Notes under the pieces: generated by a model
What the model was told of the DNA's origin: nothing
What the model saw: the letters and a program-made list of their open reading frames with translations, nothing else
Databases searched by the model: none
Translations under genes and position numbers: made by a program
Origin: Candidatus Enterenecus avicola
GTDB taxonomy: Bacteria > Bacillota > Clostridia > Oscillospirales > Oscillospiraceae
DNA: 34,983 nt
Direction of reading: 5' to 3'
NCBI GenBank assembly: GCA_018715985.1
Contig: DVKO01000110.1
Span: 1 to 34,983, forward strand
In this document: positions 7,594 through 16,689 of the stretch, piece after piece
Position numbering within the stretch: position 1 is the first letter of the stretch
Layout of the letters: every line of letters starts with the position of its first letter

Positions 7594-9837
7594 ATGGAAT
7601 CCATTGAGAAACGCTATCAGGCTCTGGAACACAACGTACTCCAGCGCAACCCCAACGCCGACGTGGCCCGGCTGCGCTCCGCCTTTGAATACGCCAACGC
7701 CCACCACGGCCCCCAGCTGCGCAAGAGTGGGGAGCCCTACATCACCCACCCCATTGCGGTGGCGGAGATTGTCAACGAGCTGGATCTGGACCTGGACTCC
7801 ATCATCGCCGCTCTGCTCCACGACTGCATTGAGGACACCGACGCCTCCCACGACGAGATCGCCAAGCTCTTCGGCGCCTCGGTGGCAGACCTGGTGGAGG
7901 GGGTCACCAAGCTGACCCGGATGCAGTACACCTCCAAGGAGGAGGAGCAGATGGAGAACCTGCGCAAGATGTTCATGGCCATGGCCCAGGACGTGCGGGT
8001 GATCCTCATCAAGCTGTGCGACCGGCTGCACAATATGCGCACCCTCCAGTTCCAGTCGGAGAAGAAGCAGCGGGAAAAGGCCCTGGAGACCATGGAGATC
8101 TACGCTCCCATCGCCCACCGCCTTGGTATGCAGCGCATCAAGTGGGAGCTGGAGGACATCTCCCTGCGCTATCTGGACCCCATCGGGTACGAGGAGGTGG
8201 AGAAGGAGCTGGAGAGCATCACCACCCGCAATGCCCAGTTCTTCTCCAACATCCAGCAGCAGCTGGAGCAGCGCCTGGCCGCCGACGGCATCCAGTGCAA
8301 GGTGTACGGGCGGGTCAAGCACATCTACTCCCTGTACCGGAAGATGTACACTCAGAACAAAAATTTCAAAGAAATTTTTGATTTATATGCCTTCCGCGTC
8401 ATTGTCCCGGACATTCCAAGCTGCTATAATGTGCTGGGCTCCATCCACGATATGTACAACCCGGTGCTGGGCCGGTTCAAGGACTACATCGGCACCCCCA
8501 AGCCCAACGGCTACCAGTCCCTGCACACCACCGTCATCGGCCGGGACGGCATCCCCTTTGAGGTGCAGATCCGCACCTGGGAGATGCACCAGACCGCCGA
8601 ATACGGCGTGGCCGCCCACTGGAAGTACAAGCAGGGCCTGGCCAACGACAAGCTGGGCAGTGAGAAGGAGTTTGAGTGGGTGCGCAAGCTGCTGGAGAGC
8701 CAGCAGGACACCGACGCCGAGGAGTTCGTCAGCACCCTGAAGGTGGATATGTTCGCCGACGAGGTGTTCGTGTTCACCCCCAATGGGGACGTGAAGAGTC
8801 TGCCCGCCGGGGCCACCCCCATCGACTTCGCCTACTCCATCCACTCCGCCGTTGGCAACTCCATGACGGGGGCCCGGGTCAACGGGCGCATCGTCACCTA
8901 CGACACCCCCCTGAAAAACGGAGACATTGTGGAGATCATCACCTCCAAGGCCGCCCGGGGCCCCAGCCGGGACTGGATGAAGATCTGCAAATCCAACGAG
9001 GCCCGGAACAAAATCCGCCAGTGGTTCAAAAAGGAGCGCCGGGAGGAGAACATTGTCACCGGACGGGCCGCCTTTGAAACCGAGCTCAAGCATATGGGCC
9101 TGACCATGGCCCAGGTCACCGCCTCCTCCGAGGTCACCGACGCTCTGCTGCGCCGGCTGCGCTACGGCTCCCTGGACGAGGTGTACGCCGCCATCGGCTA
9201 CGGCGGAATGTCCGCCCAGAAGGCGGTGGCCCGCATCAAGGAGGAGCTGCTGCGCCTGAGCCGGGAGGATCAGCACAAGGCAGAGCAGAAGGCGCTGCAA
9301 ACCTCTCTGAGCAAGGGGGAGACCATCTTCCCCGCCGCGGCCAAGGTCTCCACCCCCTCGGGGCAAAAGCCCCGCCACTCCTCCAGCGGCATTCTGGTGG
9401 AGGGGCTGGACAACTGCACCGTGAAATTCTCCAAATGCTGCACCCCCGTCCCCGGCGACCCGGTGGTGGGCTTCATCACCCGGGGCTATGGGGTGTCCAT
9501 CCACCGCAAGGACTGCCCCAACGCCGACCCCCTGCGCCGCAAGCCGGAGGAGGCGGGCCGCTGGGTGGCGGTGTCCTGGGTGGACAGCGATCAGATCAAC
9601 TACCGCACCTCCCTGGAGATCTCCGCCAAGGACCGGGACGGCCTGGCCCTGGACGTGGCCATGGCCCTGTCCACCCAGAAGGTGAAGGTGAACAACCTCT
9701 CCGCCCGGGCCCAGCCCGACGGCTACGCCATCATCTTCCTGGAGCTGTCGGTGAAGGACCGCAATGAGCTCAACGGCGTCATCAACAAGCTCTCCCAGAT
9801 CCAGGGCGTGTTCCTGGTGCAGAGAGCCAAAGGATAG
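7594..9837 (+). CDS. relA: bifunctional (p)ppGpp synthetase/hydrolase RelA/SpoT
   Basis: 747 aa: HD domain (ALLHDCIEDTDAS), synthetase (YIGTPKPNGYQSLHTTVIG), TGS (VFVFTPNGDVKSLPAGATPIDFAY), C-terminal ACT-like domain. Confidence 0.97.
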   Translation: MESIEKRYQALEHNVLQRNPNADVARLRSAFEYANAHHGPQLRKSGEPYITHPIAVAEIVNELDLDLDSIIAALLHDCIEDTDASHDEIAKLFGASVADLVEGVTKLTRMQYTSKEEEQMENLRKMFMAMAQDVRVILIKLCDRLHNMRTLQFQSEKKQREKALETMEIYAPIAHRLGMQRIKWELEDISLRYLDPIGYEEVEKELESITTRNAQFFSNIQQQLEQRLAADGIQCKVYGRVKHIYSLYRKMYTQNKNFKEIFDLYAFRVIVPDIPSCYNVLGSIHDMYNPVLGRFKDYIGTPKPNGYQSLHTTVIGRDGIPFEVQIRTWEMHQTAEYGVAAHWKYKQGLANDKLGSEKEFEWVRKLLESQQDTDAEEFVSTLKVDMFADEVFVFTPNGDVKSLPAGATPIDFAYSIHSAVGNSMTGARVNGRIVTYDTPLKNGDIVEIITSKAARGPSRDWMKICKSNEARNKIRQWFKKERREENIVTGRAAFETELKHMGLTMAQVTASSEVTDALLRRLRYGSLDEVYAAIGYGGMSAQKAVARIKEELLRLSREDQHKAEQKALQTSLSKGETIFPAAAKVSTPSGQKPRHSSSGILVEGLDNCTVKFSKCCTPVPGDPVVGFITRGYGVSIHRKDCPNADPLRRKPEEAGRWVAVSWVDSDQINYRTSLEISAKDRDGLALDVAMALSTQKVKVNNLSARAQPDGYAIIFLELSVKDRNELNGVINKLSQIQGVFLVQRAKG

Positions 9838-10014: not shown

Positions 10015-11232
10015 ATGGAAACCCATTCCTTCCAGCCCCTCCTCTTTGGCGGGGACATCAACGTATACAGTGTGGCCCGGGCCTTCCACGAGGCCTACGG
10101 GGTGAAAAGCATCGCCTTCGGCAAGTTCGCCGCCACCTTCCCCTGCGCTTTTTCCTCCATCATCGACTACCGCCCCTGCCTGGACAATGAGGACGCCGAC
10201 GCCTTTTTGAAAAATGTCACCGACGTGGCCCGGGAGGTCTCCCCCAAGACGGTGCTGGTGGTGGGGTGCGGAGACAGCTATGTGAAGCTGGCCGCCCACC
10301 TGAAAGACCGGTTCCCCGAAAACGTCAAGTGCAACTACATCTCGGGGGAAATGCTGGACCGGCTCACCGACAAAGAGCAGTTCTACGCCCTGTGCGACCA
10401 GTACGGCATCGACCACCCCACCACCTTCGTCTACGACCAGGAGATGGGCCACGACTTTGCTCCACCCTTCGGGGCCCCCTACATCGCCAAGCCCGCCGAC
10501 GGGGTGGCCTACTGGGCCACTGGCCACTCCGAGCTGAAGAAGGTGTACCTGTGCGACACCTGGGAGGAACTCCTCTCCGCCCTGGACGAGGTGTATGCCG
10601 CCGGGTATCCGGGCAAAATGATCCTCCAGGAGTTCATCCCCGGGGACGACACCTATATGCGGGTGCTGACCAACTACTCCGACCAGCACGGCAAGGTGAA
10701 GCTCATGTGCCTGGGCCATGTGCTGCTGGAGGAGCACTCCCCCCACGGCATCGGCAACCACGCCGTCATCATCACCGAGCACCAGCAGGAGCTGTGCGAC
10801 AAGATCCGGGGGATGCTGGAGGACCTGGGCTATGTGGGCTTCTCCAACTTCGACATCAAATACGACCAGCGGGACGGCAAGTACAAGGCCTTTGAGATCA
10901 ACTGCCGCCAGGGCCGCTCCAACTACTATGTCACCGGCTCGGGGCACAACATCGCCACCTACCTGGTTGGGGATCTGTTGGAGGGCAAAGACCTGCCCCT
11001 GACGGTGGTGAAAAATCAGAGCCTGTGGCGGATGATCCCCCGCCGCCTGGCCTATGAGTTCATCCCCAAAAACTACCACCCCCAGATGAAGGCCCTCATC
11101 CGGGCCGGGGCAGACCACCACTCCATGGAGTACCGCCCCGACTACACCCCGGGCCGGGTGTGGCGCATCTGGAAAAACCACATCGGCAACATGGTCCGCT
11201 TCCGCAAGTACTGCAAAAAGCCCCAGAACTAA
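10015..11232 (+). CDS. ATP-grasp ligase (carboxylate-amine/D-aspartate-ligase-like)
   Basis: 405 aa; GGDINVYSVARAFHEAYGVKSIAFGK, PYIAKPADG, LQEFIPGDD, AFEINCRQGRSNYYVTGSG ATP-grasp signatures. Confidence 0.8.
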   Translation: METHSFQPLLFGGDINVYSVARAFHEAYGVKSIAFGKFAATFPCAFSSIIDYRPCLDNEDADAFLKNVTDVAREVSPKTVLVVGCGDSYVKLAAHLKDRFPENVKCNYISGEMLDRLTDKEQFYALCDQYGIDHPTTFVYDQEMGHDFAPPFGAPYIAKPADGVAYWATGHSELKKVYLCDTWEELLSALDEVYAAGYPGKMILQEFIPGDDTYMRVLTNYSDQHGKVKLMCLGHVLLEEHSPHGIGNHAVIITEHQQELCDKIRGMLEDLGYVGFSNFDIKYDQRDGKYKAFEINCRQGRSNYYVTGSGHNIATYLVGDLLEGKDLPLTVVKNQSLWRMIPRRLAYEFIPKNYHPQMKALIRAGADHHSMEYRPDYTPGRVWRIWKNHIGNMVRFRKYCKKPQN

Positions 11233-11247
11233 GGGAGATTTCACACT

Positions 11248-11952
11248 ATGACTGAACAAAAGCTGGGCATTTTGGGGGGCATGGGCCCCCAGGCCACCCA
11301 GGTCTTTTACCAATATGTGCTGGACCGCACCGAGGCCAGCTGTGACCAGGAGCACCTGCCCACCCTCATTTTGTCCGACACCAAAATGCCCGACCGCACC
11401 ACCGCCATCCTCTCCGGCCACACCGAGGAGCTGTACGGGCGGCTGCTGGGGGACGCCCGGCTGCTGGAGCGCTGCGGCTGCACCGCCATTGCCATCCCCT
11501 GCAACACCTCCCACTACTTTGTGGATCGGCTCCAGGGGGACATCCACATTCCCATCCTCCACATGATCCGCTCCACCGCCGCCGCCATTGCCGCCCAGGG
11601 CCGCCGCCGTCCCGCCATTCTGGCCACCGACGGCACCATCCGGTCCGGGCTGTACCAGGCCGCCTGCGCCCAGCAGGGCCTGGAGGCCGTGGCCCCCGAC
11701 CCGGACACCCAGAAGCTGGTGATGTCCATCATCTACGACGAGATCAAGCAGGGAGAGCGGGGCAGCCGGGAGAAGTTTGCCGCCATTGACAAGGCCATCC
11801 GCAAGCTGGGCTGTGACTGCGGCATTCTGGCCTGCACCGAGCTGTCCGTGTTCCGCACCTACCACAACCTGCCCCCCTTCTATGTGGATGCCATGGAGGT
11901 GCTGGCGGAGACCGCCGTCACCCGCTGCGGCTACCAGCTGCGCACCATCTGA
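11248..11952 (+). CDS. aspartate/glutamate racemase family protein
   Basis: 234 aa; LGILGGMGPQAT; both catalytic cysteines present (PCNTSHYF, LACTELSV). Confidence 0.92.
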   Translation: MTEQKLGILGGMGPQATQVFYQYVLDRTEASCDQEHLPTLILSDTKMPDRTTAILSGHTEELYGRLLGDARLLERCGCTAIAIPCNTSHYFVDRLQGDIHIPILHMIRSTAAAIAAQGRRRPAILATDGTIRSGLYQAACAQQGLEAVAPDPDTQKLVMSIIYDEIKQGERGSREKFAAIDKAIRKLGCDCGILACTELSVFRTYHNLPPFYVDAMEVLAETAVTRCGYQLRTI

Positions 11953-12115: not shown

Positions 12116-12168
12116 CATCTCGCTTCCTTGATACCTGCACATTTCAACTCTAAATTGAGGTGTCTACC

Positions 12169-14541
12169 ATGAATTTGACCATGTACCGCCTGGATGACTA
12201 CTGTCATCTCCTCACCACCAAAAACCTCCTGGCCGCTCCCCTGCCCGCCGGGCTGGACTTGTCCAGGACGGTGGAGCTGGTGTCCTACGACTCCAAGAAT
12301 GTCGTCCCCGGCACCCTCTTTTTGTGTAAGGGCGCCCACTTCCGCCCCGAATACCTGCAACAGGCCGCTGACCGGGGCGCCTTTGCCTATGTCAGCCAGA
12401 CCCCCTACCCGGAGGTGGACCTGCCCTGCATCCAGGTCACCGATATGCGCCAGGTCATCGCCCCCTTTGCCGTTCTGTACTACAACGACCCCTCCCGGCT
12501 GCTGAACGTCATCGGCATCACCGGCACCAAGGGCAAGTCCTCCACCACCTATTATCTCAAGTACATTCTGGACGAATACCTGTCCAGCCGCGGGGTGCGC
12601 TGCGGGGTCATCTCCTCCATTGACACCTACGACGGGGTGGAGGAGTTTGAGTCCCACCTCACCACCCCCGAGCCCCTGGAACTGCAAAAGCACTTTGCCA
12701 ACGCACTCTGCTCCGGGCTGGGCTACTTGACCATGGAGGTGTCCTCCCAGGCCCTCAAATACCACCGCACCCTGGGCACCCGGTTTGCCGCCGCCTGCTT
12801 TTTGAACATCGGCACCGACCACATCTCCCCCATTGAGCACCCCGACTTTGAGGACTACTTCCAGTCCAAGCTGAAGATCTTCGCCCAGGCGGAGGTGTCC
12901 TGCATCAACCTGGACTGCGACCACGCCGATCGGGTGGAGGAGGCCGCCCGCCGGGACTGCCGCCGGGTGGTCACCTTCTCCCGCACCAACCCCAAGGCGG
13001 ACGTGTACGGCTCCCACATCCGCAAGCGGGGCAACGACATCATCTTCCGGGTCACCATCGCCGGGGGCCAGTCCCGGGAGTTCCAGCTGACCATGCCGGG
13101 CCTCTTTAACACGGAAAACGCCCTGGCCGCCATTGCCGTGTGCCACGCCCTGGGCATCCCCCAGCAGTGCATCTATGTGGGGCTGATGAAGGCCCGGGTG
13201 CCGGGGCGCATGGAGGTGTACACCAACGCCAACGACCACATTACCGCCATTGTGGACTACGCCCACAACCGCATGAGCTTTGAGACCCTGTTCCAGTCGG
13301 TGCTGAAAGAATATCCGGGAAAACGCATTGTCACCGTGTTCGGCTGTCCCGGCAAAAAGGCCCTGGACCGCCGGCAGGACCTGGGGGAGGTGTCGGGGAA
13401 ATACTCCGACCTGGTGGTACTCACCGAGGAGGACTCGGGCGAAGAGGACACCGTGTCCATCTGCAACGAGATTGCCCGGTATGTGGCCGCCCAGGGCTGC
13501 CCCTATGAGATCCAGCCCAACCGGGGCGAGGCCATTCGCCAGGCCATCCTGGGCTGTGGAGACAAGCCCACCGTCATCCTCATCACCGGCAAGGGGGCGG
13601 AGACCCGGCAGAAGCGGGGTCTGGAGTACATCGACACCCCGTCGGATGTGGACTACACCAAGACCTTTTTGCAGGAATACGATGTGACCCACGGCCTGGA
13701 CGGGCTGGAGAAGGTGCGCTCCATCTCCTCCGTCCTCCCCGCCCTGAAAGAGATGGCGGGCCAGACCGTGGTGGTGAAATACGGCGGCTCCGCCCTGGGG
13801 CCCGACGGGGCGGTGGACTCCATCCTCCAGGATGTGGCCACCCTCCAAATGGCGGGGCTGCGGGTGGTGCTGGTCCACGGGGGCGGGAAAAACATCACCG
13901 CCCTGCTGGAGCGGCTCCAGGTGCCCACCCACTTTGAAAATGGCTACCGGGTCACCGACGACGCCGCCCTGGGGGTGGCGGAGATGGCCCTGTCCGCCCA
14001 GGTGAACAAGGCCATTGTCACCGCCCTCCACGGCCTGGACGTGTCCGCCGTGGGCATCTCCGGCAAGGACGGCGGGCTCATTACCGCCCAGTGCAAGGAC
14101 CCCGCCCTGGGCCGGGTGGGACGCATCACCCAGGTGGACACCCGCCTGCTGGAGACCCTGCTGGGCGCCGGCTTCCTCCCCGTCATCTCCCCCATCGCCG
14201 GAGGGGACGGGGCCGGGTACAACTGCAACGCCGACGACGCCGCCCAGGCCATCGCTGAGGCCCTCCACGCCCACCGTCTGGTGTTTCTCACCGACGTGGG
14301 AGGCATCCTCATTGACAGCCACAACACCAAGACCGCCGTGGCCCACATGGACGCCCAGCGGGCAAAGGAGCTTATGGACGCCGGCCTCATTGCCGGGGGC
14401 ATGGTACCCAAAGTCCAGGGCTGTCTCCACGCCCTGGCGGCCGGGGTGGGGGAGGTGTCCATCCTGGACGGACACTGCGAGCACGTGCTGCTGCTGGATG
14501 TGCTGCATCAGCGGGTGTCTGGCACCATTCTCACTCCCTGA
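12169..14541 (+). CDS. fusion protein: MurE-like Mur ligase + N-acetylglutamate-kinase-like amino-acid kinase
   Basis: Single uninterrupted frame; N-terminal VSYDSKNVVPGTLFLCKGAHF, GITGTKGKSSTTYYLKY, MEVSSQALKYHR, VDYAHNRMSFE; C-terminal VVVKYGGSALG, VLVHGGGKNIT, ENGYRVTD, GISGKDGG, NCNADDAAQ, FLTDVGGI, GGMVPKV. Confidence 0.9.
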   Translation: MNLTMYRLDDYCHLLTTKNLLAAPLPAGLDLSRTVELVSYDSKNVVPGTLFLCKGAHFRPEYLQQAADRGAFAYVSQTPYPEVDLPCIQVTDMRQVIAPFAVLYYNDPSRLLNVIGITGTKGKSSTTYYLKYILDEYLSSRGVRCGVISSIDTYDGVEEFESHLTTPEPLELQKHFANALCSGLGYLTMEVSSQALKYHRTLGTRFAAACFLNIGTDHISPIEHPDFEDYFQSKLKIFAQAEVSCINLDCDHADRVEEAARRDCRRVVTFSRTNPKADVYGSHIRKRGNDIIFRVTIAGGQSREFQLTMPGLFNTENALAAIAVCHALGIPQQCIYVGLMKARVPGRMEVYTNANDHITAIVDYAHNRMSFETLFQSVLKEYPGKRIVTVFGCPGKKALDRRQDLGEVSGKYSDLVVLTEEDSGEEDTVSICNEIARYVAAQGCPYEIQPNRGEAIRQAILGCGDKPTVILITGKGAETRQKRGLEYIDTPSDVDYTKTFLQEYDVTHGLDGLEKVRSISSVLPALKEMAGQTVVVKYGGSALGPDGAVDSILQDVATLQMAGLRVVLVHGGGKNITALLERLQVPTHFENGYRVTDDAALGVAEMALSAQVNKAIVTALHGLDVSAVGISGKDGGLITAQCKDPALGRVGRITQVDTRLLETLLGAGFLPVISPIAGGDGAGYNCNADDAAQAIAEALHAHRLVFLTDVGGILIDSHNTKTAVAHMDAQRAKELMDAGLIAGGMVPKVQGCLHALAAGVGEVSILDGHCEHVLLLDVLHQRVSGTILTP

Positions 14542-15240: not shown

Positions 15241-16689
15241 ATGAAATTGTCCCAGTTGTTGGCCGCCATTGGACATACCTGTGAGGACGAGGTGGACATT
15301 TCCACCCTCACCTGCGACTCCCGCACCGTCACCCCCGGGGCCCTCTTTGCAGCCATCCCCGGCACCCACACCGATGGAGTGCAGTACATAGACCAGGCCG
15401 TGGCTCAGGGGGCCGCCGCCGTGGTCTCCCCCGTGTCCCGTCCCTGTCCCGTCCCCCTCTTTGTGGTGGAGGACCCCCGCACCGCCCTGGCCCACCTGGC
15501 CGCCGCCTTCTACGACTACCCCGCCAAAGGATTGACCCTCATGGGCATCACCGGCACCAAGGGCAAGACCACCACCGCCCACATGGTGCGGGACATTCTC
15601 CTCTGCGCCGGGCATCCCACCGGCATGATCGGCACCATGGGGGCCTATGTGGGCAAGGCAAAGTGGGCGGACTGCCCCAACACCACCCCGGAGCCTCTGC
15701 TCCTCCACCGGCTCCTCCGGGACATGGCGGACCAGGGGTGCACCCATGTGGTGATGGAGGTGTCCTCCCAGGCCATGAAGCACCACCGTCTGGCGGGGCT
15801 GACCTTTGCCGGAGGGGTGTTTCTCAACCTCTCCCCCGACCACATCGGCCCGGGAGAGCACGCCGACTACGCGGAGTACGCCGCCTGTAAGGCCGCCTTC
15901 TTTTCCCAGTGCGCCATGGCCTCGGGGAACGGAGAGGACATGGCATGGCCTCAAATGGCCGCCCAGCTGCCTCCCAATGCCCCCACCGCCACCTTTGGCT
16001 TTTCCCCCGGCTGTGATGTGCAGGCCGCAGGCGTGGCCCCGGAGGAGACCCCGGACGCCCTGTGTACCCGGTTTACCCTGGCTGGGGAGGAGGAGCCCTA
16101 CTCCATCCCCCTGCCCGGCCGCCACCACGTTCAGGACGCCCTGGCCGCCGTGGCCCTGTGCCGCCAGCTGGGGCTGCCGGAGGGGGCCATCCGCCGGGGT
16201 CTGGAGGGGGCCAAGGTCCCGGGCCGGGCCCAGGTGTTTCCCAATGACCGGGGGGTCCGGGCGGTGGTGGACTATGCCCACAACGCCGCCAGCTTCCGGG
16301 CCATTTTGAGCTGCCTCCACTGTTACCCCCACGGGAACATCATCGTGGTGTTCGGGGCGGGGGGCAACCGCCCCCCCATGCGGCGGCTGGATATGGCCCA
16401 GGTGGCGGCGGAACTGGCGGATTACGCCATTGTCACCACCGACAACCCCCGGTGGGAGCCGGTGGAGGGAATTTGTCGCCAAATTACCCAGGCACTGGGC
16501 CGTCAAATTCCCTGGGAGGTGATCTACGACCGGAAAGCGGCCATTTTCCGGGCTTTGGATCTGGCCCAGCCCGGGGACATGGTGGCCCTGTTGGGCAAGG
16601 GCCACGAGACATACATCGAGACCTGCGGGGTGCGGGAGCCCTTCTCCGAGTGGGAAGTGTTGGAGGAATACTTCCACACCCATCTTTAA
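15241..16689 (+). CDS. murE: UDP-N-acetylmuramyl-tripeptide synthetase (MurE)
   Basis: 482 aa; CDSRTVTPGALFAAIPG, GITGTKGKTTTA, MEVSSQAMKHHR, VDYAHNAASF, DNPR motif, GKGHETY. Confidence 0.93.
   Translation: MKLSQLLAAIGHTCEDEVDISTLTCDSRTVTPGALFAAIPGTHTDGVQYIDQAVAQGAAAVVSPVSRPCPVPLFVVEDPRTALAHLAAAFYDYPAKGLTLMGITGTKGKTTTAHMVRDILLCAGHPTGMIGTMGAYVGKAKWADCPNTTPEPLLLHRLLRDMADQGCTHVVMEVSSQAMKHHRLAGLTFAGGVFLNLSPDHIGPGEHADYAEYAACKAAFFSQCAMASGNGEDMAWPQMAAQLPPNAPTATFGFSPGCDVQAAGVAPEETPDALCTRFTLAGEEEPYSIPLPGRHHVQDALAAVALCRQLGLPEGAIRRGLEGAKVPGRAQVFPNDRGVRAVVDYAHNAASFRAILSCLHCYPHGNIIVVFGAGGNRPPMRRLDMAQVAAELADYAIVTTDNPRWEPVEGICRQITQALGRQIPWEVIYDRKAAIFRALDLAQPGDMVALLGKGHETYIETCGVREPFSEWEVLEEYFHTHL

Follow-up and report, generated by a model that had tools for sequence, protein, structure and literature searches.

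A second MurE fused to an N-acetylglutamate-kinase domain lies beside predicted D-aspartate genes in gut Oscillospiraceae and suggests possible non-DAP wall units

The window, the whole stretch of 34,983 nucleotides from Candidatus Enterenecus avicola analysed here, encodes a MurE2:NAGK fusion on the + strand at 12169..14541 (stop included), which translates as a single open frame of 790 amino acids. The ORF lister placed a GTG at 12160, three codons upstream of the ATG at 12169; the latter is the likely start, because GAGGTG lies just 5′ of it and homologues begin at that ATG. Pfam assigned Mur_ligase_M to residues 117-325, Mur_ligase_C to residues 346-476 and AA_kinase to residues 533-766, all well over cut-off, and the protein passed both the NCBIfam murE model TIGR01085 (294.8 bits versus a cut-off of 257.3) and the argB model TIGR00761 (227.6 versus 151.3 bits). 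The first-pass annotation had described one frame carrying a Mur-ligase and an ArgB-type signature set, and this was borne out by translation, Pfam and NCBIfam, with all of its quoted motifs present. The AlphaFold model of the fusion had a mean pLDDT of 86.7 and matched solved structures of MurE at a TMt of about 0.85 and of hexameric-type NAGK at about 0.9.

The fusion recurs, at 50-96% identity, in roughly 50 of the genomes sampled, among them the isolates Pseudoflavonifractor sp. An85 and P. phocaeensis An901. The same full-length protein elsewhere excludes an assembly artefact, and both ways in which, according to the annotation, the fusion could fall, a sequencing error joining two ORFs or homologues that are always separate genes, are removed by this recurrence. 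In MurE-MurF (8f5d) and cyanophycin synthetase, a Mur ligase is likewise covalently fused to a second enzyme domain, but without the NAGK-type kinase of MurE2:NAGK, and our literature search found no paper describing a MurE-NAGK fusion.

The MurE-type ligase domain (12169..13683, residues 1-505; Pfam, NCBIfam) retains in alignment the ATP loop (TGTKGKS, 12520..12540, residues 118-124), TTPE, SSQ...R, the UDP-MurNAc residues and the carbamylated-lysine position of Mur ligases (K234, 12868..12870). At the position of DNPR in DAP enzymes, MurE2 carries the motif E421-D-S/P/A-G, which in the window reads E-D-S-G (13429..13440, residues 421-424). The Arg of DNPR, which binds the DAP carboxylate in DAP-type MurE (PMC3829189), is absent, and the window's MurE2 therefore does not have the pocket of a DAP-adding enzyme. 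In S. aureus MurE, the lysine amine is bound by Asp406, the first residue of the motif, together with Glu460 (PMC3829189); in the window's MurE2, comparison identified E478 (13600..13602) as the counterpart of Glu460, while the first motif residue is acidic as in Lys-adding enzymes, but is Glu rather than Asp. The motif of the Lys-type MurE of E. faecalis and L. curvatus is D-D-P-A/G. MurE2 thus shares with the L-lysine-type enzymes of S. aureus and E. faecalis the fold, the ATP and UDP-MurNAc residues, a non-DAP pocket and an acidic motif position 1, and differs from them in the Glu, the E-D-x-G motif and the C-terminal kinase.

Glu occupies motif position 1 in every intact fusion compared. 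Glu is one carbon longer than Asp and may suit ornithine, which is one carbon shorter than lysine. The MurE of Collinsella, which we take to be of the ornithine type, has the motif E-D-P-A. We did not adopt a Glu pocket as a general rule for ornithine, since Deinococcus MurE, presumably also of the Orn type, is without the motif-position-1 Glu and breaks the rule. Inside the fused group, Glu was replaced by Asp twice, each time in a lineage without a working kinase; two such events give too small a basis for a test. L. fermentum murE, sought as an Orn-type test (we assume that its wall is Orn-D-Asp), was not among the matches listed.

Upstream of the fusion, on the same strand, lie an ATP-grasp ligase of the AslA/Aslfm (D-aspartate ligase) type by similarity and profile search (10015..11232), an Asp/Glu racemase by Pfam and NCBIfam with the two Cys motifs PCNTS and ACTE (11248..11952), and a RelA-like gene, named from its sequence, that is a conserved upstream neighbour in several genera (7594..9837). 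The order RecJ-RelA-ATP-grasp-racemase-MurE2 is kept across several genera. An AslA-type ligase and/or racemase adjoins MurE2 in 72 of the loci fetched, which were the best 80 of 567. Two others start at a contig end, and in the remaining six (four from Intestinimonas, two from Clostridia), each with 4 kb or more of upstream sequence, neither gene is beside MurE2. The AslA-type ligase was found in four of four genomes with an EDxG/DDPG-type MurE2 versus none of ten without MurE2 (Fisher p = 0.001, or p = 0.008 once two ligase-free genomes whose MurE2-like gene is more distant are included); in two of the four it lies on a contig other than that of MurE2.

Aligned over about 98% of its length, the ATP-grasp enzyme shares 34-36% identity with proteins annotated as 'carboxylate--amine ligases' in lactobacilli; these served for the comparison in place of the assayed AslA/Aslfm enzymes. 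The matching ligase gene comes after an amino acid racemase gene in L. curvatus and after asnB in L. crispatus, and racD-aslA is a known D-Asp cross-bridge pair (PMC4155827). With both full-length similarity and racemase gene pairing, the window's enzyme resembles the AslA/Aslfm family and is predicted to be a D-aspartate ligase. The racemase just passes a cysteate-racemase model (198.1 versus 190). The AslA/Aslfm and RacD systems of Lactococcus, Enterococcus faecium and lactobacilli likewise pair an ATP-grasp ligase with an amino acid racemase, whereas the set described here also includes a second MurE dedicated to it, which often bears a kinase domain, in a genome that retains a DNPR-type MurE as well. 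In a Collinsella aerofaciens locus (L135, 5910-9464), asnB lies directly 5′ of MurE and is a possible D-Asp amidation gene.

The DNPR-type enzyme of the window is MurE1 (15241..16689, + strand; Pfam, NCBIfam and motif), with DNPR at 16441-16452. Another MurE-like gene was present in all 24 carrier genomes checked, and DNPR was read in the window's MurE1 and in the other MurE of ten carrier genomes. DAP stems are therefore expected too, and DAP need not be replaced.

These genes could together form a wall module, in which MurE2 would add ornithine (lysine possible) to UDP-MurNAc-Ala-Glu, the neighbouring racemase would make D-aspartate, and the ATP-grasp enzyme would join D-Asp to the side-chain amine of the diamino acid. 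The resulting stem peptide would be of the A4 type, (Orn or Lys)-D-Asp, and would coexist with the DAP stem from MurE1. One of the two chief rivals is that MurE2 adds L-lysine (Lys-D-Asp, A4alpha), with the fused NAGK serving general arginine/ornithine supply and the fusion being incidental. Known AslA-RacD systems mostly serve Lys-D-Asp walls (PMC4155827), D-D-P-G MurE2 relatives without a kinase have the same operon, and Lys use by S. aureus MurE is set by pool size more than by pocket (PMC3829189). We nevertheless consider the lysine version somewhat unlikely, as the Glu of all intact fusions differs from the Lys-type enzymes compared and the fused kinase is an enzyme of the ornithine pathway rather than of lysine synthesis. 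A non-wall peptide or a cyanophycin-like storage polymer, made by the ATP-grasp and Mur ligase pair, would employ the same two enzyme classes and would leave the wall to the DNPR-type MurE that is already there; it is highly improbable given the failed cyanophycin synthetase model TIGR02068 (69.7 versus a cut-off of 850), the conserved UDP-MurNAc-site motifs of MurE2 and the AslA-like ATP-grasp enzyme.

The N-acetylglutamate-kinase domain (13705..14538, residues 513-790) includes the N-terminal helix of hexameric NAGK. It carries every residue expected of a NAGK: the catalytic Lys K537 (VKYGG, 13777..13779), the GGG loop (HGGGK, 13876..13890, residues 570-574), the substrate Arg R594 (GYRVTD, 13948..13950), NxNAD (NCNAD, 14221..14235, residues 685-689) and GGMxPK with the catalytic Lys K748 (GGMVPK, 14410..14412). 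The catalytic positions are invariant in 26 intact fused kinases, and dN/dS of these kinases is 0.03-0.35, in step with MurE2, so that purifying selection acts on them as it does on the ligase. In the phylogeny, the fused kinases form one clade, separate from the ArgB of the same and related genomes (support 100/100). The domain resembles hexameric arginine-sensitive ArgB in passing TIGR00761, in the N-terminal helix, in the catalytic residues and in structure (TMt of about 0.9 with the Synechococcus and Arabidopsis NAGK), and is set apart by its joining to MurE, its own clade, the GGGK loop and the former arginine site. In this region (14482..14526, residues 772-786), the first Gly of GxGT is replaced in the fusions compared, while it is retained in the ArgB of the same genomes. 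Arginine-sensitive NAGKs combine the N-helix with a C-terminal E...GxGT, and only the helix is kept intact here. Together with established NAGK knowledge, the replaced Gly predicts weak arginine inhibition, and the fused NAGK is probably arginine-insensitive.

The first-pass annotation had offered two roles for the kinase, the first being a LysZ-like phosphorylation of a carboxylate carried by the Mur product or by another bound substrate. The physical fusion would fit this role, as would GGGK and GYR, which differ from the ArgB of the same genomes. GGGK was dropped as proof of a new substrate when the same GGGK and NADDAA residues appeared in the nearest ArgB of the tree, from an argJ-argB-argD cluster (L170), and the GYR position varies among solved NAGKs. 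The domain also fell below the LysW-kinase cut-offs of NF010659, NF010661 and NF010662 (133.1, 113.0 and 101.9 versus 223, 251 and 194 bits) while passing the argB model, and no partner reductase, aminotransferase or carrier gene was seen adjoining the fusion in the loci examined. This role found no support and is very unlikely, also in view of the NAG kinase activity suggested by the genome described below.

No other arginine genes lie within the window, as had been noted; they sit elsewhere in the genome, where the proposed check for a separate argB found a canonical one beside argG-argH-argJ-argD; the genome also has an argC. This rules out the fused kinase as the sole ArgB of the window's organism. 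A further argB-argD lies at the end of another contig (4760-6737) of the same genome, as a duplicate or on a stray contig. Separate ArgB and ArgJ are present in nearly all carriers, and the fused domain is therefore usually an extra isozyme and usually not needed for ornithine. We found no separate argB in the carriers G099, G063, G071 and G325 (the same as G008, 76% complete), of which only G099 was used as evidence; argC is shortened and argJ absent in G063, and both argC and argJ are absent in G071. Genomes of the G072 type, once thought to lack a separate argB, do have one.

The one NAGK that we found in G099 (Intestinimonas sp. bin_14) is the fused kinase, which is intact there. The argC-argJ-argD genes of this genome lie in an ungapped stretch with 85-91% DNA identity to two sister genomes, from which exactly argB is missing: 97 bases separate the end of argJ from the point at which homology picks up again, at the extreme end of argB in the sisters (L200, 3288-3402). 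If the assembly is complete here, the fused domain must supply the NAG kinase activity. The function of the fused domain finds its strongest support in this single metagenome-assembled genome, which points to a NAGK but whose argB may have escaped assembly.

The second role that had been offered, supply of an ornithine precursor, fits better because of the D-Asp neighbours, the non-DAP MurE pocket and G099. That part of the earlier proposal is compatible with the data. Architecture, gene set, motifs, conservation, selection and phylogeny are direct results here, and both substrates are inferred. In our preferred reading, held tentatively and at slightly less than an even chance, MurE2 is Orn-adding, its neighbours add D-Asp and the fused domain is an additional NAGK for ornithine supply. 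Several observations weigh against this reading: all carriers checked have another MurE, most have a separate ArgB, the kinase was repeatedly lost or eroded, and at six loci MurE2 is without the partner genes. The domain would catalyse a committed step of ornithine synthesis, with the remaining steps provided in trans by ArgC, ArgD and ArgJ. Since the arginine site looks disabled, the fused NAGK could go on supplying ornithine to the wall while the normal ArgB is shut off by arginine. The reason for the fusion may lie in tethering, stoichiometry or a shared assembly into hexamers; against direct channelling, the kinase is three enzymes away from ornithine and cannot pass its product straight to MurE2.

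Within the window's genus, 12 of the 37 genomes searched carry the fusion, one of these copies being truncated at a contig end; a further 23 have only the MurE part, at 66-76% identity, and MurE2 was not detected in two (G002, G025). The last two are also without a detectable D-Asp ligase, a natural loss of the module, with G025 only 74% complete. A named search, covering the best 80 of 567 loci and biased towards full-length matches, recovered the fusion in Pseudoflavonifractor, Lawsonibacter, Intestinimonas, Evtepia and other Clostridia, and an order-wide draw of 245 genomes gave MurE2 relatives in 23, with fusion-length frames in six of these. A tree of 79 family members requires one kinase gain, one clean loss (17 sequences of the window's genus) and one erosion group. 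A second tree with unfused relatives placed a further kinase loss (G130, G160, G213, G258 and G287) inside the fused group, on a long branch. The trees fit a fusion that arose once, followed by clean losses and by a dead remnant in Flintibacter-like lineages; the kinase was lost or eroded several times with MurE2 and its partner genes retained. We do not claim that the fusion is ancestral to all MurE2, given the search bias and the unfused MurE2 of other genera in the order-wide draw.

The remnants have lost all catalytic motifs and keep the N-helix, the C-terminus and an open frame. Their dN/dS of 0.15-0.87 is faster than that of MurE2 and below neutrality in every pair measured, and a remnant model (pLDDT 81) is predicted to fold, with NAGK as its best, weak matches. 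This leaves room for a structural role or for slow decay. The other chief rival builds on the remnants and takes the kinase domain as mainly structural or sensing, building a MurE2 hexamer or sensing arginine/ornithine to tune the ligase. We regard it as quite improbable, because intact copies retain every catalytic residue at low dN/dS, the clean losses make the domain dispensable for MurE2, G099 suggests catalysis, and the remnants evolve faster than MurE2. Lawsonibacter-type MurE2 at three loci (L121, L122 and L123) has the pocket DDSE alongside an eroded kinase. In Flintibacter muris and its allies, the argG/argH-adjacent ArgB (L162, L164, L166 and L168) is full length with its catalytic motifs lost (VRYDSG, HGGT and GEMVHK in L162), and a second argCJBD cluster elsewhere has intact motifs (L161, L163, L165 and L167). 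This second cluster does not explain the kinase decay, since G080 has a remnant and one intact ArgB.

Taken together, these data suggest that many gut Oscillospiraceae carry an ordinary MurE and a second MurE fused to a kinase, beside predicted D-aspartate genes, with non-DAP wall units possible. Peptidoglycan is uncharted for most Oscillospiraceae genera: Table 1 of PMC11382707 lists mesoDAP for Faecalibacterium and is blank for Oscillibacter, and our search turned up no paper on wall chemistry in Intestinimonas, Flavonifractor or Lawsonibacter. If Orn- or Lys-D-Asp stems do occur beside DAP, one cell would hold two MurE specificities, muropeptides of common gut bacteria would signal differently to the host, and a biosynthetic kinase joined to a wall enzyme that uses the end product of its pathway would be a new coupling of amino-acid supply to the wall. 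More speculatively, and in our estimate unlikely, the two MurE would specify different stems (DAP and Orn-D-Asp) and the fused NAGK, as supplier of ornithine or as sensor, would tie the choice between them to amino-acid status. Wall chemistry would then shift with metabolism, and host NOD1/NOD2 signalling with it. As minor observations, MurE1 is less conserved than MurE2 within the window's genus, and it carries GGNRP or GGDRP there versus mostly GGDRD in the DAP-type MurE of other genomes.
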